This document shows, piece by piece, positions 1-33,335 of a stretch of 40,392 bases of DNA. The DNA is from an uncultured Sulfurovum sp. Its GTDB lineage: Bacteria; Campylobacterota; Campylobacteria; Campylobacterales; Sulfurovaceae. The stretch is taken from NCBI GenBank assembly GCA_902727895.1, contig CACVAP010000033.1:1-40392 (forward strand), read 5' to 3'. The stretch's first letter is position 1, and every line of letters begins with the position of its first letter. Below the pieces are notes generated by a model. The model made no database searches. It was not told the DNA's origin and worked only from the letters and a program-made list of their open reading frames with translations. The position numbers were made by a program, and so were the translations under genes.

Positions 1-2576
1 TAGGAAATGACTTCATTATGGCAGATGGTACAAGCACCAATGTAAGTGCTGGAAACTTTAATAGTAGATCAGGAGCTAATACAACATTACAGATAGTAGA
101 TGTATCAGGAACAATGGATGTTGATGCCATAAAAGAGTTGTTATTAAGTGCTGCGATTACAGTTGGATTAGATACGAATATGCATGGTGAGAACATTACT
201 CAAGATGGTGAGATGACGATTGGTGGAGCATTAACATTAAATGCAGATGCAAATATGAACCAAAATGCCAATACGACTGTAACAGGTGGCGACATGACCG
301 TGACAGCAGGAAATGACTTCATTATGGCAGCTGGTACAAGTACGAATGTAAGTGCTAGAAACTTTAATAGTATTGTAGAGGGAGATACTACCCTACAGAT
401 GATGGACGTGTCAGGAAGTATGGAGGTTGATTCTGATGAGGATGTTGTACTTGCAGGTGCCTTGAATGTTACTGGAGATACTGGCTTAAATGGTTTAAAC
501 ATTAGCCAAGATGGAGAAATGATTGTTGGTGGAAGTAGCACAATAGCAGCTGGTGAAAATTTCAGTCAAAATGCTAATACTAGCTCAGTTGGTGATATGA
601 ATGTTACAGCAGGAAATAATTTCATAATGTCAGAAGGCACTAGTACAACTGTTAGTGCTGGTAAGTTACTTGCTGATGCTAAAGGTGATACTACCCTTCA
701 AGCCATGAACATCTCAGAGAGTATGAATGTGACAACTGCGAATGAGATGATATTAAACAATACTGTTCAAAGTGGTCTAGAGACAATATTAACTGCTACA
801 AATGTAAGCCAAGAAGCAAAACTTAGCGTTGGTGGTGTACTAGATATTAAAGTTAGTAATGACTTTACACAAAATGCAGAACAAGATGTGAGTAAGACCT
901 TAACTATTAATGCTGGTAATAACATTACTCAAAATGCTAATACGCTTACCGTTAATGATATACGTATGACAGCAGGAAATGACTTTATTATGTCAGAAGG
1001 TACAAGTACGACTGTGAAAGAAGGTAACTTTAGTAGTACTTCTGAAGGTTTAAGTACTTTAAATACGATGCTAATATCCAATGGTAGTCTGGCAGTAGAT
1101 GCTAATAAAGCGTTACTCTTAAATGGTGCAATTACAGCTGGCTTAGATACAAATATGCATGGTGAGAACATTACTCAAAATGCTGATATAAGTATTGGAG
1201 GAGCATTAACATTAAGTGCTGACAGCAATATAAACCAAAATGCTAATACAAGCGTAATGGGTGGAAGTATGAGAGTTACAGCTGCTAATGACTTCTTGAT
1301 GGCAGAAGGTACAAGTACCAATGTAAGTGCTGGAGACTTTAATAGTACTTCAGGAAGTTATACGACTTTACAAACGGTAAATGTATCAGGGAGTATGAAT
1401 GTAAATGCAGGAAAATCGTTGTTACTAAGTGGCACGATTACAGCTGGCTTAAGTACAAGTATGCAGGCTGAGAATATTACTCAAAATGCTGATATGAACA
1501 TTCGTGGAAGATTGACATTAAATGCAGATGCAAACATTAATCAAAATGCCAATACCAGCGTAATGGGTGGAGACATGAGTGTTAGAGCTGGAAATGACTT
1601 CATTATGGGAGACGGTAGCAGTACCAATGTAAGTGCTGGAAACTTTAATAGTAATTCAGGAGGTAATACAAGTTTAGAACAAATGACTGTTTCAGGGTCT
1701 ATGAATGTAAATAGCAAAGGTGATTTATTATTAAATCAATTTGTAGAAGTAGGAGGTAGTCTAATAATCAAAGCTGGAGGTAGTATTATTCAAAATCAAA
1801 ATATTGATGTTGAAGGTGATATTACTTATGAGGCAGATGATAATATTATTATGGATGCTGAGACGGAAACAGTTTCGAATGTTGGAAATATTGACTATAC
1901 AGCGAGTGGTGCAGTCTTTATCTCAAACCTTATTACGCATGGGAATACCGTTTCATTAAATGTTTCAAACGTTAATTCTGTTTTAGATTCCAATAACAAT
2001 GAAGATTCAAATATTAATGCTTCAGAGTTTCATTTAACGGTTAATTCATTTGATGATGATAACAATGCTATTGAGATTACTGAAAATAGAGGAATTCAAG
2101 TTGCAGTAACATCGACAAGTTTAAATTCATTAGCAAGTGATGAAGAAAATTTAGTATTCAATTCTGATGAGAATGTTTTAGTGATTGATAATGAAGTGTT
2201 CTCTTTTGAAGAGGCAGAAAGTGCTATAGCAGTCTATATTTTTGCTACATTAGAGTCTAGCTTAGAGTTAACAAGCCAAAATCTATCAGGCTTCTATGAA
2301 GAGTTAGAAGAATCAGATAAAAATTTAGTTGAATCGATTTCTTTAGATACAGAAGAGGGACTAGTTCTAAATGGAGTAAATGAAGAGTTAGACTTAGATG
2401 ATTTATTTGGAAAGCAACAGTTTATGGAAGATAACTTTGAAACTTTCTATAAGCAGTTGAGTTTCTTATATGACTCAGGTATGCCATTGTTTGATTTATA
2501 TGCATCTGAAGAGTATGAAAATTCAACTATTATAAATTCAAACATTGAATATTGGATTGAAGATATAGCAATTTAA
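1..2576 (+). CDS. Giant repetitive surface/exported protein, C-terminal part (5' end outside window)
   Basis: The reading frame is open from the first bases of the window, so the start lies upstream and at least 857 residues are visible. The first ~570 residues are imperfect repeats of about 102 residues, each with a GNDFIM, a STNVSAGNF-like, a VSGSMNV-like and an ITQNA/NINQNANT block. They are rich in N, T, S, G and hydrophobics alternating as in right-handed beta-helices of filamentous-haemagglutinin type. From about base 1730 the repeats stop and a non-repetitive, strongly acidic region follows, ending in WIEDIAI. No anchor helix, barrel, sorting signal or RTX nonapeptide is visible. The gene is first in a tight plus-strand series with TolC-, HlyD-, M50- and SecA-like genes, so it is the probable substrate of that machine (inference). 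An adhesin or matrix protein is likely, but the N-terminus is unseen. Confidence 0.75.
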   Translation, partial: GNDFIMADGTSTNVSAGNFNSRSGANTTLQIVDVSGTMDVDAIKELLLSAAITVGLDTNMHGENITQDGEMTIGGALTLNADANMNQNANTTVTGGDMTVTAGNDFIMAAGTSTNVSARNFNSIVEGDTTLQMMDVSGSMEVDSDEDVVLAGALNVTGDTGLNGLNISQDGEMIVGGSSTIAAGENFSQNANTSSVGDMNVTAGNNFIMSEGTSTTVSAGKLLADAKGDTTLQAMNISESMNVTTANEMILNNTVQSGLETILTATNVSQEAKLSVGGVLDIKVSNDFTQNAEQDVSKTLTINAGNNITQNANTLTVNDIRMTAGNDFIMSEGTSTTVKEGNFSSTSEGLSTLNTMLISNGSLAVDANKALLLNGAITAGLDTNMHGENITQNADISIGGALTLSADSNINQNANTSVMGGSMRVTAANDFLMAEGTSTNVSAGDFNSTSGSYTTLQTVNVSGSMNVNAGKSLLLSGTITAGLSTSMQAENITQNADMNIRGRLTLNADANINQNANTSVMGGDMSVRAGNDFIMGDGSSTNVSAGNFNSNSGGNTSLEQMTVSGSMNVNSKGDLLLNQFVEVGGSLIIKAGGSIIQNQNIDVEGDITYEADDNIIMDAETETVSNVGNIDYTASGAVFISNLITHGNTVSLNVSNVNSVLDSNNNEDSNINASEFHLTVNSFDDDNNAIEITENRGIQVAVTSTSLNSLASDEENLVFNSDENVLVIDNEVFSFEEAESAIAVYIFATLESSLELTSQNLSGFYEELEESDKNLVESISLDTEEGLVLNGVNEELDLDDLFGKQQFMEDNFETFYKQLSFLYDSGMPLFDLYASEEYENSTIINSNIEYWIEDIAI
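18..1907 (+). repeat. Tandem ~306-bp coding repeats in the giant surface protein
   Basis: The codon for the M of the GNDFIM block recurs at 18, 324, 627, 990, 1299 and 1605. Spacings are 306, 303, 363, 309 and 306 bases, all multiples of three. Copies share long near-identical nucleotide stretches around this anchor. The unit from 627 is longer by 60 bases, that is 20 residues, the size of one beta-helix coil. The array extends beyond the left edge of the window. The last unit, from 1605, decays into non-repetitive sequence, so the right boundary is approximate. Confidence 0.85.
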
Positions 2577-2602: not shown

Positions 2603-4201
2603 ATGTATAATAAATATATTATAGTTTTATTAGTAAGTATGAGTATTAGTGTACACGCAAGTATAGAGGAGTCTATTGATAAGTCATTATTGGCAGGCTC
2701 TTGTAACGGATGTGAATTGGTAGAGCTGTCACTTAATGGTTTAGTTAATGAGGTAGTGAAACGAAACTTTGAATTATATTCAGAAAAGAGTAAAGTTGAG
2801 ATTTCCGAGCATAAGATAGGTATAGAAGAGGGAATTTTTGAGCCAAAATTTCAAGCATCAGCAGGTATTTCTAGAACGAATGTACCCAATTCAGCTGATC
2901 AAAGGGTGTCACGAGGATTTCAAGACAGTTATAGTGATCGAACGCGAAGTTTTGACACAAGTATTAGTGGATTGATTGACACAGGGGGAGAATGGAAAGT
3001 TGGATTTACTGATCAGAAAAAAAGAAGTAATTTAATTAGTGAGACTCAAGATTATGATACTGAATATAGTGATGGGTTTAATCTTTCATTTAAGCAGCCT
3101 TTATTAAAAGGTATGGGTAAAGATGTTACCCATGCTAAGATTAATATGGCAAAAATTGGAAATAACATTAATAAGACAGAATATAAAAATAAACTGATGG
3201 GACTGGTAGCAACAACGATTCGTTTATATTGGCGTTTGTATGGAACTGAAAAATTGTATGAAAGTTGGACAAAGACCTTAACAATTTCAGAACAACAATT
3301 AGAAAATATTCAGCTGTTGGCACAATATGGGAAAATACCTGAAACAGAAGTACTTGAAGCACGAAGTTCGATTATTGAAAAAAGAACAGAATTAATGAGT
3401 TTAAAAACAAGAATTGATGAAATTAAAAATCAATTACTTTCTTTATTAAATGTTTCTAATTCAGCATTTACTTCAACGCTTTTTCTTGTAAAAGATATAC
3501 CAAATATTGGACAAGCTAGTGAGACATTTAGTATAGATGAAAGTTATCAAAAAGCCATTAAAAATTTACCAGAGTTACAGTTGGCTGAATTACGTGTGGC
3601 ATCGAAGAGACTAGAGCAAAAATATAATGAAAATCAACTCTTACCTGAGTTAAGTTTGGATAGTGGTTTATCTACTTTAGGATTAAGTAATATTCAAAAC
3701 AATGCAAGATTTTGTAGTGCTGGAAGGTGTAATGATCAAGTTTCATGGAATGTAGGTCTTAATTTTGAAATGCCAATTTATGGGAATACTCAAGCAAAAG
3801 AGAACTTGGCGATTTCTAAGATTAATCTAAAAAATTCTGAGTTAGCCATTGAGTCATTTGAAAAAGAGATTTATAATGTTATTACAACAAAAATTGAACA
3901 ATTAAAGATAGAAAAGTATAAGTTAGAACAATATAGAGAAGAGGTTCGAATGAAAGCTGAACTTTTAGACATAGAACGCCAAAAGATGAGGCTTGGAAAG
4001 TCTAGAATGAGAAATATTTTAGAGTATGAAGATAAGTTAATGAGTACTGAAAGAAAATGGTTGAGTTCTATTGTTAATTGGAAAGTATCTGAGGCTTTAT
4101 TATTAAAAGCAACAGGTGATTTGTTAGTACATCAAAACATTGATCTAGATTTTTCGGGAGATTATCAGGGAAACTCTGAAAATTTAAATTTATTAAAATA
4201 G
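2603..4201 (+). CDS. TolC-family outer-membrane efflux/secretion channel protein
   Basis: This 532-residue protein is probably the trimeric outer-membrane exit duct of the neighbouring export system. It has an N-terminal signal peptide (MYNKYIIVLLVSMSISVHA), then the two-fold repeated long-helix architecture of the OEP/TolC family. Visible hallmarks are the SFKQPLLKGMG strand segment around residue 165, heptad-like helices rich in E, K, L and Q around 200-280 and 400-500, and a second beta-strand segment near 375-390 (GLNFEMPIYGN). The length is slightly above the usual 450-500. The mature N-terminus carries a CxxC pair (SCNGCE) and a second Cys pair lies near 372-377, which could form disulfides. 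It starts 26 bases after the giant protein, with an AAAAAGGGATAAG ribosome site, and precedes an adaptor gene by 22 bases. Confidence 0.85.
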   Translation: MYNKYIIVLLVSMSISVHASIEESIDKSLLAGSCNGCELVELSLNGLVNEVVKRNFELYSEKSKVEISEHKIGIEEGIFEPKFQASAGISRTNVPNSADQRVSRGFQDSYSDRTRSFDTSISGLIDTGGEWKVGFTDQKKRSNLISETQDYDTEYSDGFNLSFKQPLLKGMGKDVTHAKINMAKIGNNINKTEYKNKLMGLVATTIRLYWRLYGTEKLYESWTKTLTISEQQLENIQLLAQYGKIPETEVLEARSSIIEKRTELMSLKTRIDEIKNQLLSLLNVSNSAFTSTLFLVKDIPNIGQASETFSIDESYQKAIKNLPELQLAELRVASKRLEQKYNENQLLPELSLDSGLSTLGLSNIQNNARFCSAGRCNDQVSWNVGLNFEMPIYGNTQAKENLAISKINLKNSELAIESFEKEIYNVITTKIEQLKIEKYKLEQYREEVRMKAELLDIERQKMRLGKSRMRNILEYEDKLMSTERKWLSSIVNWKVSEALLLKATGDLLVHQNIDLDFSGDYQGNSENLNLLK

Positions 4202-4223: not shown

Positions 4224-5069
4224 ATGAAAAATTTTAGATTATTAATTGGACTAGTACTATTAAGTAGTATGATACTTAAAGCAGATGCATTTGTAGGGAT
4301 TATAAAACCTATTAAAGATATACGATTAAGTGTTGATTTAGATGGAACAGTAGATAAACTTTATGTTAAAGAGGGTTCTTTTGTAAAAAAGAATCAAAAG
4401 CTTTTAAAACTTAAGAGTCACCTACAGGAGTTAGAACTTAATAAGCGAAAAGTAATTTGGAAAGATCAAGCTCAGTTAAATGCAGCTAGAAAAAATAGAG
4501 AAATTCAAAAATCTTTATTGGATTCAACACAAGAGTTATATGATCAAACACGTGCCGTAAGTCGAGATGAATTGAGTATGTTAGAAAGTAAGTATCATAT
4601 CCTGAATGGTGAAATTAGGATGAGGGAAGAAAATGAAAAAAAAGAGAAGCTTGAGTATCGAATTGCACGAGAAATGCTGTCTAAATATACAGTTAAGTCA
4701 CCTATTGCAGGTGTTGTAACTGAGCTTGCTGTACAAAAAGGTGAGTGGGCTAAGACAGGAAAACCATTTATACGTGTGGTTAATGCAAATGTTTGTTATA
4801 TTGATATTAATATTGATGAAGCTTATAGTAGTACTTTAAAAGTAGGGGACAATATTGATTTTACTGTTGAAGCAAAAAGTGTTACAGCAAACAAAAAGGG
4901 AAAAGTTACATTTATATCACCCATTGCTGATATGGCAAGTGGTTTAATACGTATTAAAATACAATTCTCTAATCTTAAAAACCGTGTGACACCAGGGCTT
5001 TCGGCTACAATTAATATTGATGCTTTTTCAAAACCAGAAAAAAAGAGTTTAGATGCCTCAAGAGAGTGA
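4224..5069 (+). CDS. HlyD-family periplasmic adaptor (membrane fusion) protein
   Basis: This 281-residue protein has a cleavable signal peptide (about residues 1-22, ending ADA) and no transmembrane anchor, so it is probably periplasmic. Residues ~25-65 and ~155-190 form the two halves of a biotinyl-lipoyl-like domain (DGTVDKLYVKEGSFVKKNQ and SPIAGVVTELAVQKGEW), separated by an alpha-helical hairpin (~70-150). A beta-barrel domain follows and ends in TPGLSATINI. This is the standard order of RND/HlyD adaptors, but the protein is shorter than typical 350-400-residue members. It lies between the TolC-like gene and the GAF/HlyD fusion, overlapping the latter by 17 bases, which suggests translational coupling. 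Its role is inferred: linking the inner-membrane parts of the system to the TolC-like channel. Confidence 0.85.
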   Translation: MKNFRLLIGLVLLSSMILKADAFVGIIKPIKDIRLSVDLDGTVDKLYVKEGSFVKKNQKLLKLKSHLQELELNKRKVIWKDQAQLNAARKNREIQKSLLDSTQELYDQTRAVSRDELSMLESKYHILNGEIRMREENEKKEKLEYRIAREMLSKYTVKSPIAGVVTELAVQKGEWAKTGKPFIRVVNANVCYIDINIDEAYSSTLKVGDNIDFTVEAKSVTANKKGKVTFISPIADMASGLIRIKIQFSNLKNRVTPGLSATINIDAFSKPEKKSLDASRE

Positions 5070-6936
5070 TGTTAGATATGAACCCAAAGAGCTAATAGAA
5101 TATATACAATCTTTAAGAGAGTCAACTGATGATAAGCAGACCTCTTTATTAAATTATTTAAAGTATTCTGCTTTATTAGTCAAGTCTCCTTTTGCACTTG
5201 TTTTAAAAGAGGGTAATAAAAAAGATTGGAATTTATTGGGTAGTTATGCTTTTGAAAATGTAAAAGAGCAAGAAGATGAAGTAATACAATTGGCATTGGG
5301 TATGTATGCTCGGGTTGTAAAAAAAGGCTTTGCCTATGAACGTGTAACTATAGAGTCTTGTAATATAACGAATCAGATGGCTTTTGCTGTAAAAATAGAT
5401 AAAGGTATAGAAGGGGCAGCATCATTTCTTTTTTTTGTTGTTGAGTATCAAGATTCAAAACAATTATCAGAGATGATTATACGTACACTGATGAATACGG
5501 ATATTCCTCATTTATTATTTAACAAGGAAGTTACATCTAAAACAGAGAATGTTCCTGCCTTATCAGATGAGAAGCTAAATACGTTAAATATCGAGGTTTT
5601 AGATATTTTATCACAAATTATTTTTCAAGAAAAATTTCTTTTGGCTTCAATGTTTTTGGTTAATGAAATTGCAACACGATTTAATTGTTCTCAAGTAAGT
5701 CTTGGTTGGGAGAAGGGGGCTTATGTTAATCCTGTGGCTATTTCTCATATTGAAAAATTTGATAAGAATATGGAAACAGTACAAGATTTACAAGCATTGT
5801 ATGAAGAAGCAGCCGATCAAGACGAAGAGATTATTTATCCTGTTCATGAAATAAGTGATAGCATTGTTTTCGCACATCATCATTATGTAGACAAAACAAA
5901 AGCAACAGAGGTCTTCTCTGTACCATTTAGGACAAATGACCGAGTTGTTGGGGTTATGACTTGTGAAAAAATAAATGGTTCATTTTCAGAAGAAGAGTTA
6001 ATCCTTTTACGTTTACTTTCTAATTATATTACACCTTGGTTAAAAGAGATTCATGATAAAGATCGTTGGATTGGTGCCAGAGTACTATCAAAGTCTAGAC
6101 AGAGTTTAGGTAAGTTTTTTAGTTTAAAAAATACGTTTTTAAAATTTTCTGCTGTATTGGTTTCAGCTTTTATAATTTATGCCCTTTTAGGAACATGGAA
6201 TTATAAAGTAGAGGTTGTAAGTTCTTTAGAAACAGATAATGTAGCTTTTGTTTCGGCGCCATTTAATGGTTTGGTTTACAAGGTGGATGTTCATGTTGGA
6301 GATAAGGTTCAAAAAGGAGATAAGCTTTTAAGTTTTGATAAAGATGAACTATATTTAAAGGAAGCAGAAGCACTGGCTGATATTAACAAATATAAAAGTG
6401 AGTCAGAAAAAGCGAGGGCTAAAAATTCATTGGCTGATATGCGTGTGGCACTTTCTAAGAAAAAAGAATCAGAACTAAATTTGGAACGTGTACATTATTA
6501 TCTTAAGAAGTCAGATATGTTTTCTTCATTAGAAGGGGTAATTATTGCAGGAGATAAAGAAGAACTTTTAGGTGCACCTGTTTCTAAAGGGGATGTTCTT
6601 TTTAAGGTAACACAGTCAACAGAGTTGTATCTTAAGCTACAGATTCCAGAGCGTTATCTTGATGAAGTTAATAGTACCTTAGGTGGTGAATTTGTACTAC
6701 TCTCTTCTCCTGATAAAAAATACCATTTTCAAATAGATAATATCATTCCAATGGCGAGTGTTGACCAAAGTGAAGGGAATGTCTTTGTTGGAAGAGCTAA
6801 GGTGATTGGTATTCCTGAAGATTGGTGGAGACCAGGTATGAGTGGTGTAAGTAAAATTGAAGTCGGTGAAAAAAACATTGCATGGATATTGACACATGAT
6901 TTCGTAGAGTTTATACGTATATACTTTTGGATATAA
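5053..6936 (+). CDS. GAF-domain / membrane-anchored HlyD-type adaptor fusion
   Basis: In this 627-residue protein, residues ~1-345 are soluble and predicted cytoplasmic, with a GAF-like domain around 190-330 (block ending FSVPFRTNDRVVGVMTCEK, then FSEEELILLRLLSNY). A single transmembrane helix lies at ~362-381. The rest is an HlyD-like periplasmic part: lipoyl half SAPFNGLVYKVDVHVGDKV near 401, a short helical hairpin ~430-490, a second lipoyl half and a barrel ending WWRPGMSGVSKIEVG. There is a further hydrophobic stretch at the extreme C-terminus. The gene overlaps the upstream adaptor by 17 bases and ends 3 bases before the M50/HlyD gene. A cytoplasmic sensory module on an adaptor is unusual and may gate export. 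The domain assignment is confident; ligand and role are unknown. Confidence 0.8.
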   Translation: MPQESDVRYEPKELIEYIQSLRESTDDKQTSLLNYLKYSALLVKSPFALVLKEGNKKDWNLLGSYAFENVKEQEDEVIQLALGMYARVVKKGFAYERVTIESCNITNQMAFAVKIDKGIEGAASFLFFVVEYQDSKQLSEMIIRTLMNTDIPHLLFNKEVTSKTENVPALSDEKLNTLNIEVLDILSQIIFQEKFLLASMFLVNEIATRFNCSQVSLGWEKGAYVNPVAISHIEKFDKNMETVQDLQALYEEAADQDEEIIYPVHEISDSIVFAHHHYVDKTKATEVFSVPFRTNDRVVGVMTCEKINGSFSEEELILLRLLSNYITPWLKEIHDKDRWIGARVLSKSRQSLGKFFSLKNTFLKFSAVLVSAFIIYALLGTWNYKVEVVSSLETDNVAFVSAPFNGLVYKVDVHVGDKVQKGDKLLSFDKDELYLKEAEALADINKYKSESEKARAKNSLADMRVALSKKKESELNLERVHYYLKKSDMFSSLEGVIIAGDKEELLGAPVSKGDVLFKVTQSTELYLKLQIPERYLDEVNSTLGGEFVLLSSPDKKYHFQIDNIIPMASVDQSEGNVFVGRAKVIGIPEDWWRPGMSGVSKIEVGEKNIAWILTHDFVEFIRIYFWI

Positions 6937-6939
6937 GTA

Positions 6940-9090
6940 ATGAGTGAACAAATATTTTCTAATTCTTGGCACATTGTTTCAGGATTAAACGTTTCATTAC
7001 TAACCACTGTTACGGTGCAAAAACAACACTACAGAGGAGAAGAGTGGTATGTCTTAAAAGATAGTTTTAATAATAAGTTTTTTCGGATTAAACCTGAAGC
7101 TTATAAGTTTATTGTACGGTTACATACAGATGCTTCTGTGGAAGAAATTTGGGAAGAGTATCTTTCAAAATATCCTCTTATTGCACCTACACAAGATGAA
7201 GTAGTTAAATTATTGTCGCAATTACATTTAAATAATTTACTATTTTTTAAAAATAAAGCACAAAGTGAAGAGGTGTTTGAACGCTATAAGGAACAAAAAA
7301 GAAAGTTTCTAAAAAGTAAGGTTATGAGTTTCTTATTTATTAAAGTTCCTCTATTTAATCCTAATAGGTTTTTAGATTCTATTCATCCTCTAACCAAAGC
7401 TATTTTTAGCCGTTTTGGCTTTCTTCTTTGGTTAGTTATGATTATTTATGCTTTAAAAATAGTTATTGATAATAGTTCTTTAGTCTCTTCTCAAGTACAA
7501 GGAATGCTCTCTCCTAATAACTTAGTTTATCTATATATTACGCTCTTTTTATTAAAAATTCTACATGAATTTGGGCATGCTATGGTTTGTAAGAAATTTG
7601 GAGGACCGGTACATACATTGGGATTAATGTTTCTGGTTTTTACGCCATTACCTTATATGGATGCTAGTAGTAGTTGGGGATTTAGAAATAGGTGGCAAAG
7701 AGTATTTGTTGGTTCAGCAGGAATGCTGGTAGAACTTTTTATTGCAGCAGTAGCCACTGTGATTTGGATTAATACTGGAGATGGTTTTATTCATGCTCTA
7801 AGTTTTAATGTAATGATTATAGGTTCAGTTTCAAGTTTGATTTTTAATGCTAACCCTTTACTGAAACTGGATGCATATTATATGCTTTCTGATGTTTTAG
7901 AAATTCCAAACCTTGCAAAACGTGCTAATCAACAGTTTTTTTATTTCTTTAGAAAGAACCTTTTTAAAGTTGCTAATATTTTTCCACCAGGTCGTACATC
8001 TAAAGAGGTGTTTTGGTTAAATACTTATGCAGTTTTGAGTTATTTATATAGACTTTTAGTTTCTTTAACAATTATGTTTTTTGTAGCAGATCAGATTTTC
8101 ATACTTGGGGTAATAGTAGGGATTATGTCTCTATTTTTATGGGTTCTTAAACCTCTTTATAGTTTGTTTAATTATCTTTTAAAGAATCCTGAGTTAAATC
8201 AAAGTAGGGCAAAAGCTACTTTGATTTCATCGATATTCTTTGCCTCACTTTTAATCATGTTTATGTTTATTCCTTTTTCGAACTCTATTCGTGCTTCTGG
8301 GGTACTGTATGCTCAAGGTTTCTCTTCGGTTTATGCTCCAAGTGAAGGAGAATTACTAAAAGTTGATGTCTCTGATGGTCAAGAGCTTAAAAAAGGAGAT
8401 TTAATTGTTAAGTTTATTAACACAGAGATGGAGATTGAAATAGAAACTTTAAAAGTTAATCTTGAAGAAACGTTGGCATTAGAGTTAAAAGCACAAAAAG
8501 AAATCTCAGACTTAGAACCTCTTAAAAAACGGGTAGAACTTTTGAAAAATAAGATTAAAGTCTTAGAAGAGAAGAAAAATGATTTATTCGTTTATGCAGA
8601 AGTATCAGGAGTTTGGATATCCAAGAAAATAAAAATTAGAGAAAATAGTTTTATTAATAATGGAACACATTTAGGAGATATTATCCCTCAAGATAATTTT
8701 GAATTTATTGCTGTTGTTTTTCAAGAAGAAGCTTATAATTTATTTGAAACTACTCTTATGGAATCCTCTATAAAAGTACATGGTAGTGTTGAAAGTACCA
8801 TTGAAATTGATGATATTAAGTTAATTCCTTATAAACAATATATGTTACCTTCTTCTGTTTTAGGTTGGCTTGGTGGAGGAGATATTAAGGTTTCTCAAAA
8901 AGACCCTTCTGGAAGAAAAAGTATGGAAGCCTTTTTTGAGATTAGAGCGAATGTTTCTATGGCAGAGGGAAATCCTTTATTGTATCATCATCGTTCTGGT
9001 ATTTTAAATATTAAGTTAGCGGATGCTTCATTGCTAGAGCAGTTTACACGTTACATTAAACAATTAATGCAACGAAAATATCAGATTTAG
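6940..9090 (+). CDS. PqqD-like / M50 site-2-type metalloprotease / HlyD fusion membrane protein
   Basis: The protein has 716 residues in three modules. Residues ~30-105 resemble a PqqD-type winged-helix peptide-binding domain (RGEEWYVLKDSFNNKFFRI then a helical part). Residues ~150-430 are polytopic and carry the M50 zinc site: H209-E210-F-G-H213 in a helix, and N305-P306...D311 as the probable third ligand motif. After the last transmembrane segment (~425-440) comes an HlyD-like module: lipoyl half VYAPSEGELLKVDVSDGQ, a coiled-coil hairpin of about 80 residues (~480-555) and a second lipoyl half with a barrel. Fusion of an intramembrane protease to an adaptor is known from 'peptide zinc metalloprotease' annotations in export and bacteriocin clusters. 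Here it may be the inner-membrane core, replacing an ABC or RND pump (inference). It is followed 8 bases later by the SecA-like gene. Confidence 0.8.
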   Translation: MSEQIFSNSWHIVSGLNVSLLTTVTVQKQHYRGEEWYVLKDSFNNKFFRIKPEAYKFIVRLHTDASVEEIWEEYLSKYPLIAPTQDEVVKLLSQLHLNNLLFFKNKAQSEEVFERYKEQKRKFLKSKVMSFLFIKVPLFNPNRFLDSIHPLTKAIFSRFGFLLWLVMIIYALKIVIDNSSLVSSQVQGMLSPNNLVYLYITLFLLKILHEFGHAMVCKKFGGPVHTLGLMFLVFTPLPYMDASSSWGFRNRWQRVFVGSAGMLVELFIAAVATVIWINTGDGFIHALSFNVMIIGSVSSLIFNANPLLKLDAYYMLSDVLEIPNLAKRANQQFFYFFRKNLFKVANIFPPGRTSKEVFWLNTYAVLSYLYRLLVSLTIMFFVADQIFILGVIVGIMSLFLWVLKPLYSLFNYLLKNPELNQSRAKATLISSIFFASLLIMFMFIPFSNSIRASGVLYAQGFSSVYAPSEGELLKVDVSDGQELKKGDLIVKFINTEMEIEIETLKVNLEETLALELKAQKEISDLEPLKKRVELLKNKIKVLEEKKNDLFVYAEVSGVWISKKIKIRENSFINNGTHLGDIIPQDNFEFIAVVFQEEAYNLFETTLMESSIKVHGSVESTIEIDDIKLIPYKQYMLPSSVLGWLGGGDIKVSQKDPSGRKSMEAFFEIRANVSMAEGNPLLYHHRSGILNIKLADASLLEQFTRYIKQLMQRKYQI

Positions 9091-9098
9091 GGTAGCAG

Positions 9099-11069
9099 AT
9101 GAATTTATCAGAAAGTTATGATCAAAAAGTATTTAGAGAAGATGAAAAACCTTTAGATGGTTTTGATGAATTTATGCAAATGCTATCTGGTAAGTTTTAT
9201 GCTTTTTATCCTCATCGTATGTTTTTATTGAAAGAAGCAAATCAAATAGCTAAACTAAGCTTGACTTATGAACTATTAAATGAGGAACAGTTTAGTCAAA
9301 AAGTTCAAGAGTATAGGTCAAAATTTAAATTAGGAGTTGTACCTAAAAATAGAAAATTATTACATCAAGCATTAGCATTGATTTGTGAAGCCTCATTTAG
9401 AACTTTAGGAATACGACCTTATAGTGTACAGATATTAGGGGCATTAGCAATGTATGAAAATTTTGTAGTTGAAATGCATACAGGAGAGGGAAAAACTATT
9501 ACAGCAGGCTTGGTAGCTGTATTATATTCTTGGGCTGGAAAGCCCTGTCATGTTGTAACCTCTAATGATTATTTAGCACAAAGAGATGCTGAGGAGTTAC
9601 GTGAGTTTTATGAGTTTTGTGGTTTGTCTGTAGGGTTTGTTGGTGGTGATATGCAACGAGACGAGCGTAGAGATAATTATAAAAAATCAATTATTTATGC
9701 AACGAGTAATGAAATTTTAGCTGATTTTCTTCGTGACCAAATGGAAAGTTCATATGCAACAAGCTTTAATTCTTTACTTCTACAAGGGGTAAAAAGAGAA
9801 CATAGAGATGATTCTGTTATACAAGGTTTACATAATATTATTATAGATGAAGCAGACAGTCTCTTAGCTGATGAAGCGATCATTCCTTTAATTATTTCTG
9901 TCCCCAAAGAAAATAAACCTTTGATAGATGCTATTCTTAGTACAAGAAAGGTTTCGACTCTTTTAGAAGAGAAAAAGCATTATACACTTAGTAATAAACA
10001 TAAAGAAGTTTTTTTTACAGAAGAAGGTGAAGAATTTATTGAGGGTATTGTTGACGCTTTAACCCCTCTTTGGAAATCAAAAAATCGACGAGAGTATCTT
10101 TTAAAACAAGCAATTATTGCTAAAAACTTTTATTTAAATGGAACACATTATGTCATTTCTGAAGGTAAGCTTGTTATTGTTGATGAAAAAACTGGAAGAT
10201 TAATGCCTAATCGTTCTTGGGGTAATGGATTGCATCAAGCTGTAGAAGCAAAAGAAGGCATAGAGTTAAGTGATCCTACTGAAACTCATATTCAGATGAG
10301 TTTTCAGAGGTTTTTTCGACTTTATAAAAATGTTTGTGGGATGAGTGGAACATTACAAAAGTTAGAATCTGAACTTTGGCACATTTATAACTTAGCAACA
10401 TTGAAAATTCCAAAGAGAATACCAAATAAATATAAGGTGCTAAAAGAACAAATTTTAGAGACAAAAGAGAAGAAATGGCAAGTTGTAGTTGAAGAGATTG
10501 CAAATATCCATCAAAAAAAACAACCTATTTTAATAGGAACACGAAGTATTGAAGATAGTGAAAACTTATCATTAGCATTAACAAAAAAATCCATTGAACA
10601 TCAAGTACTTAATGCCCTGTATCATGAAGAAGAAGCTGAGATAATTACTAAAGCAGGAGAACTAAATATGGTTACGATTGCTACAAATATGGCAGGAAGA
10701 GGGACAGATATAAAGGTATGTGAAGAGGCTTTAACTGTTGGTGGTTTGCATGTTATCGCCACAGAACGACATGATTCGGAACGGGTAGATAAACAACTTT
10801 TTGGAAGAACAGCTAGAAAAGGACAACCTGGAACAGTACAACAGATAGTAAGTTTAGAAGATGAGTTATTAATGAACAATAGTTCTACATGGTTTAGAGA
10901 CAAAGTGGGTAGTAAGATTGACAATGGTTTTTGGAGATACATTCTTTTGCTAAACTATAAAAGGTTACAGAAAAAGAGTGATAAAAAAGCATCGAAAATG
11001 AGAAAAAATATTTTAAAAAATGACTTTTCTATAAAAAGAATGTTGTCTTTTTCCTCTAAGTCGCATTAG
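9099..11069 (+). CDS. SecA-like ATPase, short form lacking the canonical C-terminal half-domains
   Basis: This 656-residue protein has clear SecA DEAD-motor motifs: Walker A TGEGKT at ~128-133, TSNDYLAQRDAEE, Walker B IIIDEADSLLADEA at ~247-260, a preprotein-cross-linking-domain region containing VIVDEKTGRLMPNRSWGNGL, SGTL, then the second RecA fold with GTRSIEDSE, ATNMAGRGTDIK and the ERHDSERVDKQLFGRTARKGQPG arginine-finger motif. After SLEDELL only ~75 lysine-rich residues remain. Most of the helical scaffold and wing domains and the zinc tail of an 850-900-residue SecA are missing. The DEVDS of housekeeping SecA is DEADS here. Last gene of the TolC/HlyD/M50 operon, 8 bases after the M50 gene. 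It is likely a dedicated motor for the giant protein rather than the general SecA, which should be encoded elsewhere (inference). Confidence 0.85.
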   Translation: MNLSESYDQKVFREDEKPLDGFDEFMQMLSGKFYAFYPHRMFLLKEANQIAKLSLTYELLNEEQFSQKVQEYRSKFKLGVVPKNRKLLHQALALICEASFRTLGIRPYSVQILGALAMYENFVVEMHTGEGKTITAGLVAVLYSWAGKPCHVVTSNDYLAQRDAEELREFYEFCGLSVGFVGGDMQRDERRDNYKKSIIYATSNEILADFLRDQMESSYATSFNSLLLQGVKREHRDDSVIQGLHNIIIDEADSLLADEAIIPLIISVPKENKPLIDAILSTRKVSTLLEEKKHYTLSNKHKEVFFTEEGEEFIEGIVDALTPLWKSKNRREYLLKQAIIAKNFYLNGTHYVISEGKLVIVDEKTGRLMPNRSWGNGLHQAVEAKEGIELSDPTETHIQMSFQRFFRLYKNVCGMSGTLQKLESELWHIYNLATLKIPKRIPNKYKVLKEQILETKEKKWQVVVEEIANIHQKKQPILIGTRSIEDSENLSLALTKKSIEHQVLNALYHEEEAEIITKAGELNMVTIATNMAGRGTDIKVCEEALTVGGLHVIATERHDSERVDKQLFGRTARKGQPGTVQQIVSLEDELLMNNSSTWFRDKVGSKIDNGFWRYILLLNYKRLQKKSDKKASKMRKNILKNDFSIKRMLSFSSKSH

Positions 11070-33133: not shown

Positions 33134-33208
33134 TCCGGATTAGCTCAGTGGTAGAGTAGATGACTGTTAATCATTTGGTCGTTGGTTCGAATCCAACATC
33201 CGGAGCCA
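33134..33208 (+). tRNA. tRNA-Asn (GTT), copy 1
   Basis: A 75-base cloverleaf: acceptor TCCGGAT pairs with ATCCGGA, D-loop AGCTCAGTGGTAGAGT, anticodon loop CTGTTAA with anticodon GTT, T-loop GGTTCGAATCC, and encoded CCA at the end. It reads AAC/AAU, asparagine. Confidence 0.97.
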
Positions 33209-33260: not shown

Positions 33261-33335
33261 TCCGGATTAGCTCAGTGGTAGAGTAGATGACTGTTAATCA
33301 TTTGGTCGTTGGTTCGAATCCAACATCCGGAGCCA
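33261..33335 (+). tRNA. tRNA-Asn (GTT), copy 2, identical
   Basis: Same 75 bases as copy 1, base for base, including the encoded CCA, beginning 127 bases downstream. The 52-base spacer shows no second promoter that I can identify, so both are probably cut from one precursor. Confidence 0.97.

Follow-up and report, generated by a model that had tools for sequence, protein, structure and literature searches.

This locus raises the question of what a single protein that joins a PqqD-like domain, an M50 intramembrane protease and an HlyD-type adaptor is doing beside the gene for a giant repeat protein. To our knowledge, the export of bacterial proteins of 5,000-20,000 residues is poorly understood. 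We analyzed a 40,392-nucleotide stretch of DNA from an uncultured Sulfurovum sp. (contig CACVAP010000033.1), henceforth referred to as the window. The fusion protein and its parts are located as follows.

6940..9090, forward strand: PqqD-like / M50 / HlyD fusion, 716 aa, with an ATG start (profile matches, alignment and AF2 model)
6991..7248, forward strand: PqqD/RRE-like domain, residues about 18-103 (PF05402 in 21 of 41 relatives; profile match to 3g2b)
7411..8184, forward strand: M50 membrane protease part, residues about 158-415 (PF02163, NF041824 and AF2 model)
7564..7578, forward strand: HEFGH zinc/catalytic motif, residues 209-213 (H209, E210 and H213 invariant, n = 72)
7852..7872, forward strand: NPLLKLD third-ligand motif, residues 305-311 (N305, P306, L307 and D311 invariant, n = 72)
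8272..9045, forward strand: HlyD-type adaptor domain, residues 445-702 (VIA-align Z of 12-14 to EmrA, MexA, AcrA and MacA)

The window fusion is matched by PF02163 (M50; E = 9.6e-6), which also matches 39 of 41 relatives, and by TIGR01843 (HlyD; E = 1.2e-7). Among named families, NF041824 (daptide intramembrane protease) scores best for the PqqD-M50 part (E = 2.7e-48, residues 22-401). The score of 165 bits is under the curated cut-off of 300 bits, and the fusion is thus related to this family and not a member of it. There was no Pfam match to PF05402 (PqqD) in the window fusion, where the PqqD-like domain was assigned by alignment to relatives; the best E-value among the 21 matching relatives is 9.9e-8. 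Profiles of the fusion family also found the PqqD structure 3g2b, with an E-value of 0.012 for the whole protein and 0.025 for the N-domain alone. In the AF2 model of the fusion (mean pLDDT 87.9), the PqqD-like region consists of strands followed by three helices. A VIA-align fold search with the whole model, in which the adaptor domain filled the match list and which bears on the adaptor fold only, identified residues 445-702 as a barrel-sandwich fold with a hairpin.

We identified seven hydrophobic helices in the fusion. The proposed cytoplasmic parts contain 22, 1, 7 and 2 lysines and arginines versus 0, 0 and 0 in the periplasmic loops. From the seven helices and the positive-inside rule, we predict a cytoplasmic location for both the PqqD-like part and the active site and a periplasmic one for the adaptor. 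A preliminary description of this DNA had proposed these three modules, in this order and on these sides of the membrane, and the profile matches, the adaptor fold match and the predicted topology bear it out. The HEFGH and NPLLKLD motifs are intact and lie exactly where it had placed them. Residues W10, R49, W71, H209, E210, H213, N305, P306 and D311 are invariant in 72 full-length fusions, so the motifs are not due to chance, and because the catalytic residues never vary, the M50 part is likely an active protease.

The fusion is encoded by the fifth gene of a six-gene operon with intergenic gaps of -17 to +26 bp. The order is giant repeat protein, TolC, adaptor, GAF-HlyD, fusion and SecA-like ATPase; beyond the operon lie TauE and then uvrA. 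The remaining features of the operon are listed below.

3..2576, forward strand: giant repeat protein, C-terminal part, the presumed substrate (DUF5649 repeats; runs off the contig start; ORF with an ATG start from 18)
2436..2573, forward strand: conserved tail at the C-terminus of the giant, with NIEYWIEDIAI as its last residues (near-identical in genome G009; related endings at loci L031, L035, L051 and L057)
2603..4201, forward strand: TolC-type outer-membrane channel, 532 aa (TIGR01844, E = 4.2e-25, under the model cut-off; PF02321)
4224..5069, forward strand: periplasmic adaptor (MFP), 281 aa (TIGR01730, over the cut-off)
5053..6936, forward strand: GAF-HlyD fusion, 627 aa (PF16576, PF13437 and a weak GAF match)
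9099..11069, forward strand: accessory SecA-like ATPase, 656 aa (domain matches, alignment to B. subtilis SecA and a model)

The GAF-HlyD protein has a cytoplasmic GAF-like part, one transmembrane segment at about 362-380 and an HlyD-type adaptor. Profile searches found no ABC transporter among the operon genes, and none of these genes was identified as a decarboxylase, an aminotransferase or a methyltransferase. The whole operon is also present in a second Sulfurovum genome (G009), including the tail of the giant protein, with 63-64% identity to the window for the fusion and the SecA-like protein.

The C-terminal ending of the giant (window 2540-2573; also L013, L031, L035, L051 and L057) has an aromatic/acidic-Trp-x-Glu pattern, as in EYWIEDIAI. 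Such endings are common to giants of Sulfurovum, gammaproteobacteria and Burkholderiaceae, and possibly represent a second signal. At several other loci (L031:4816-5556, L043, L050, L060 and L024), a conserved gene for about 240-260 aa lies between the giant and TolC; it looks like SapC and is annotated so in L024. DUF3467 occurs near the giant at other loci, and the window has neither DUF3467 nor a SapC-like gene. The window also carries tandem tRNA-Asn (gtt) genes (33134-33208 and 33261-33335).

We compared the last protein of the operon to SecA. It comprises the SecA_DEAD domain, the preprotein cross-linking domain (PPXD, the clamp) and a P-loop domain, with NBD1, NBD2 and Walker A/B present, and neither the Walker A nor the DExD residues vary among 56 relatives. 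The match to B. subtilis SecA stops at residue about 605-615, where the protein itself ends. We take this position to be inside the first scaffold helix, based on the domain borders of SecA, and the protein therefore lacks the helical wing domain, the two-helix finger and the C-tail. Relatives are similar in length (620-760 aa). Over 587 residues, the model (pLDDT 91.2) fits the SecA chain of 6itc, a SecA-SecY complex, at 2.9 A. The window's genome also encodes a canonical SecA of 871 aa. In public annotations, the SecA-like gene of L018, L019 and L024 is named a DEAD/DEAH helicase or a prepilin peptidase.

Scanning a single genome for each species with a profile, we detected relatives of the fusion in at least 582 genome stretches. 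The best 80 of these are from Campylobacterota, alpha-, beta- and gammaproteobacteria, Desulfobacterota, Verrucomicrobiota, Planctomycetota, Nitrospirota, Chlorobiota and Fibrobacterota. Considering only loci among these 80 with room (at least 2.5 kb of flanking sequence), a SecA-like gene lies downstream of the fusion in 64 of 66 and a GAF-HlyD gene upstream in 67 of 70. In 51 of these 64 loci the SecA-like gene lies no more than 100 bp from the fusion, and the median overlap is 4 bp. Because these 80 loci are the closest relatives, the 64 of 66 is the rate of the clade and not of the whole family. Between loci, the distances of the M50 fusion, the SecA-like protein and the GAF protein correlate (rho 0.81-0.82, 67 loci), and the presence of SecA on the fusion tree requires 4 changes versus 27 in shuffles.

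We also surveyed an unselected sample of 196 genomes from the order around Pseudomaricurvus, 46 of which encode the fusion. We define the main branch as fusions scoring >500 bits (18 of the 46) and refer to the other 28 as the distant branch. Most main-branch fusions are accompanied by GAF-HlyD and SecA-like genes. One sub-branch of the main branch (L126-L128, L130, L132, L133 and L022) has GAF-HlyD without an adjacent SecA, and a search of six of its genomes for SecA retrieved canonical SecA only. In the distant branch, HlyD is shorter and the SecA-like gene is missing, and again only canonical SecA was found in the distant-branch genomes checked. The SecA-like protein is thus a clade-specific partner and not part of every machine, and we rejected it as a universal motor. 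Distant-branch versions without SecA also occur on plasmids of E. coli (L021, NZ_CP081687.1) and Citrobacter, where the Enterobacteriaceae gene set comprises a giant Ig-like protein, TolC, an adaptor, HlyD and M50-HlyD. On the small Magnetospirillum gryphiswaldense plasmid pMSR-1 (L020, 7950-14034), a distant-branch cluster lies beside an ELWxxDGT repeat protein.

LEPR-XLL (NCBIfam NF012209) marks the N-termini of giant proteins, and the open frames that start with it reach 20,466 aa. In the Pseudomaricurvus-order sample, all 17 genomes with LEPR-XLL carry the fusion: 13 of 18 main-branch genomes and 4 of 28 distant-branch genomes, versus 0 of 150 without it (Fisher 2.7e-13 for the main branch, inflated by relatedness). 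In ten of these genomes the motif is on the contig of the fusion, at 1.2 to 60 kb. Among 189 Verrucomicrobiota genomes, LEPR-XLL occurs in 15 of 15 main-branch genomes, 1 of 23 of the distant branch and 1 of 151 without the fusion (Fisher 2.2e-20, likewise inflated). Although the Fisher values overstate the evidence because related genomes are treated as independent, the pattern holds in both groups. When the two samples are pooled, LEPR-XLL giants are present in 28 of 33 main-branch genomes, 5 of 51 distant-branch genomes and 1 of 301 genomes without the fusion. The motif is likewise present in all five additional genomes with the fusion, which belong to Verrucomicrobiota, Planctomycetota, Nitrospirota and Desulfobacterota.

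The preliminary description had connected the fusion to the giant protein, and this co-occurrence across genomes strongly supports the connection. It mentioned neither the SecA-like ATPase next to the fusion nor the recurrence in many phyla, nor the LEPR signal at the N-terminus. Computation thus establishes the anatomy and predicted topology of the fusion, its conserved operon, its invariant catalytic residues and its tight link to LEPR-XLL giants.

The leader consensus of the main branch is [FY]x[LI]ExLEPR[LV]LLSADP, and that of the distant branch is LEPRxMFDGA or a similar variant (L144, L145, L149 and L153). LEPRxLLSADP and LEPRxMFDGA are apparently branch-specific signals. The G009 giant begins with MSSLHGLRR...FKIDALEDRILLSGDPVL, its N-terminus has LEDRILLSGDPVL, and there is no hydrophobic Sec-type signal stretch. 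Its frame of 7328 aa reaches the end of contig C44, and a C-terminal part starts off-edge in contig C20; the two may be one gene. The N-terminus of the window giant was not found in the assembly, which we searched with NF012209 and the G009 N-terminus, and it may fall in a gap or have diverged. LEPR-XLL was found in 0 of 298 sampled Campylobacterota genomes, including three with a distant-branch fusion, and the motif is thus of no help as a test in this phylum.

These N-termini bear on how the giants would cross the inner membrane. One alternative is export in two steps, in which housekeeping SecA/SecYEG carries the chain across the inner membrane, the fusion, adaptors and TolC act in the periplasm, and the SecA-like protein is a helper paralogue. 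The persistence of the fusion, the adaptors and the giants in branches without the SecA-like gene is consistent with such a scheme, as is the canonical SecA in the window's genome. However, the LEPR N-terminus that we examined lacks a hydrophobic signal, the PqqD-like domain is predicted to face the cytoplasm, and the SecA-like protein lacks the finger that engages SecY. We regard two-step export as quite unlikely.

What the protease might do is suggested by the daptides. In these pathways, the site-2 protease (MpaP/DapP) carries an RRE at its N-terminus, the precursors have the leader motif ELExMEAP, and Leu(-7) and Met(-4) are important for a second RRE protein to recognize the leader (PMC10036551). 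Leader removal has been attributed, as a proposal, to the RRE-dependent protease MpaP (PMC10036551). Aligned with ELExMEAP, the LEPR leaders (FELENLEPR in L036, for example) keep its register, and this likeness is weak, being reached by 4,184 of 100,000 column permutations (4.2%). Because it is only modestly better than permuted columns, we keep it as a hint, and the binding and clipping of LEPR are inferred rather than claimed.

The likeness to daptide proteases could also be taken literally, with the fusion maturing peptides in a daptide-like pathway and lying beside the giant gene only incidentally. NF041824 is indeed the best named match over residues 22-401. Against this, the score of 165 bits compares with a cut-off of 300, the same secretion neighbours accompany the fusion across phyla, and the secretion operon and LEPR giants recur without peptide-modifying genes. 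As the operon encodes none of the modifying enzymes, we rejected a daptide-type peptide pathway as the role here; such a role would be highly improbable.

We instead propose, with a probability of about 0.62, that the fusion sits in the inner membrane as the hub of a TolC-type, ABC-free exporter whose cargo would be giant surface proteins, and we envisage four activities. The cytoplasmic PqqD/RRE-like domain would bind the LEPR leader of the unfolded giant. In the window's clade, the minimal SecA-like ATPase, with a clamp and a motor and without a SecY-engaging finger, would feed the chain to the membrane. The site-2 protease active site, on the cytoplasmic side, may cut the leader at LEPR or directly behind it, in the way proposed for MpaP. 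The HlyD domain of the fusion would join GAF-HlyD, the free adaptor and TolC in a periplasmic conduit. That the fusion processes the giant is suggested by analogy to the daptide RRE-protease together with the LEPR leader.

The protease core may have another use in such a conduit. It could serve mainly as a gate or scaffold, with proteolysis acting elsewhere (for example, to clear a stalled chain or release the GAF-HlyD anchor) and the LEPR leader left in place. The adaptor fusion suggests a structural role, the cut site in the leader is putative, and the likeness of LEPR to ELExMEAP is weak. The zinc ligands and the catalytic Glu never vary (n = 72), however, and the named family nearest to the fusion is proposed to remove a leader (PMC10036551). 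A gate or scaffold is therefore unlikely in our assessment, and leader clipping within the ABC-free exporter is the reading that we retain.

In its most specific form, the proposal would describe a new secretion system in which an RRE-guided site-2 protease-adaptor replaces the ABC transporter and reads and clips LEPR, while a finger-less SecA (in one clade) moves giants as long as about 20,000 aa through a TolC conduit independently of SecY. We offer this version tentatively and would not yet favor it. Our literature search, which left most subscription journals outside its reach, found no description of the gene cluster; within the same scope, LEPR-XLL is a named motif with passing mentions, and we found no paper giving it an export function. 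The proposed export machine is widespread and apparently undescribed, and it appears to secrete some of the largest bacterial proteins. The link ties the LEPR-XLL motif to one machine whose candidate recognition domain and protease, along with a possible motor, can be named, and it brings the peptide natural-product biology of RRE-proteases together with giant-protein secretion. The leader, the cut site, E210 and the finger-less SecA are predictions that can be tested in culturable marine bacteria; Neptuniibacter caesariensis MED92 and Marinobacterium mangrovicola are examples that carry the operon.

We compared the system to known ones. Like type 1 secretion (HlyB/HlyD/TolC, with giant adhesins such as LapA and SiiE), it has an HlyD-type adaptor, TolC and a giant repeat substrate, whereas the window operon lacks an ABC transporter, the linked signal is the N-terminal LEPR, and protease and SecA-like parts are present. 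It shares with accessory Sec (SecA2) a second SecA paralogue, probably for special substrates; unlike in accessory Sec, the SecA-like protein ends in the first scaffold helix and is paired with M50-HlyD and TolC genes. Daptide MpaP/DapP also has an N-terminal RRE/PqqD-like domain on an intramembrane site-2 protease in a pathway with leader-bearing precursors. No HlyD adaptor has been reported for it, whereas the window fusion has one, and daptide substrates are short peptides, nearly all from Actinomycetota and Bacillota, in contrast to the presumed giant substrate of the window. As for the LEPR-XLL proteins (NF012209), the giants bearing the motif track the fusion and are often encoded nearby. 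The exporter is thus probably distinct from type 1 secretion in lacking an operon ABC transporter, from accessory Sec in lacking the finger, and from daptide maturation in its adaptor and giant substrate.
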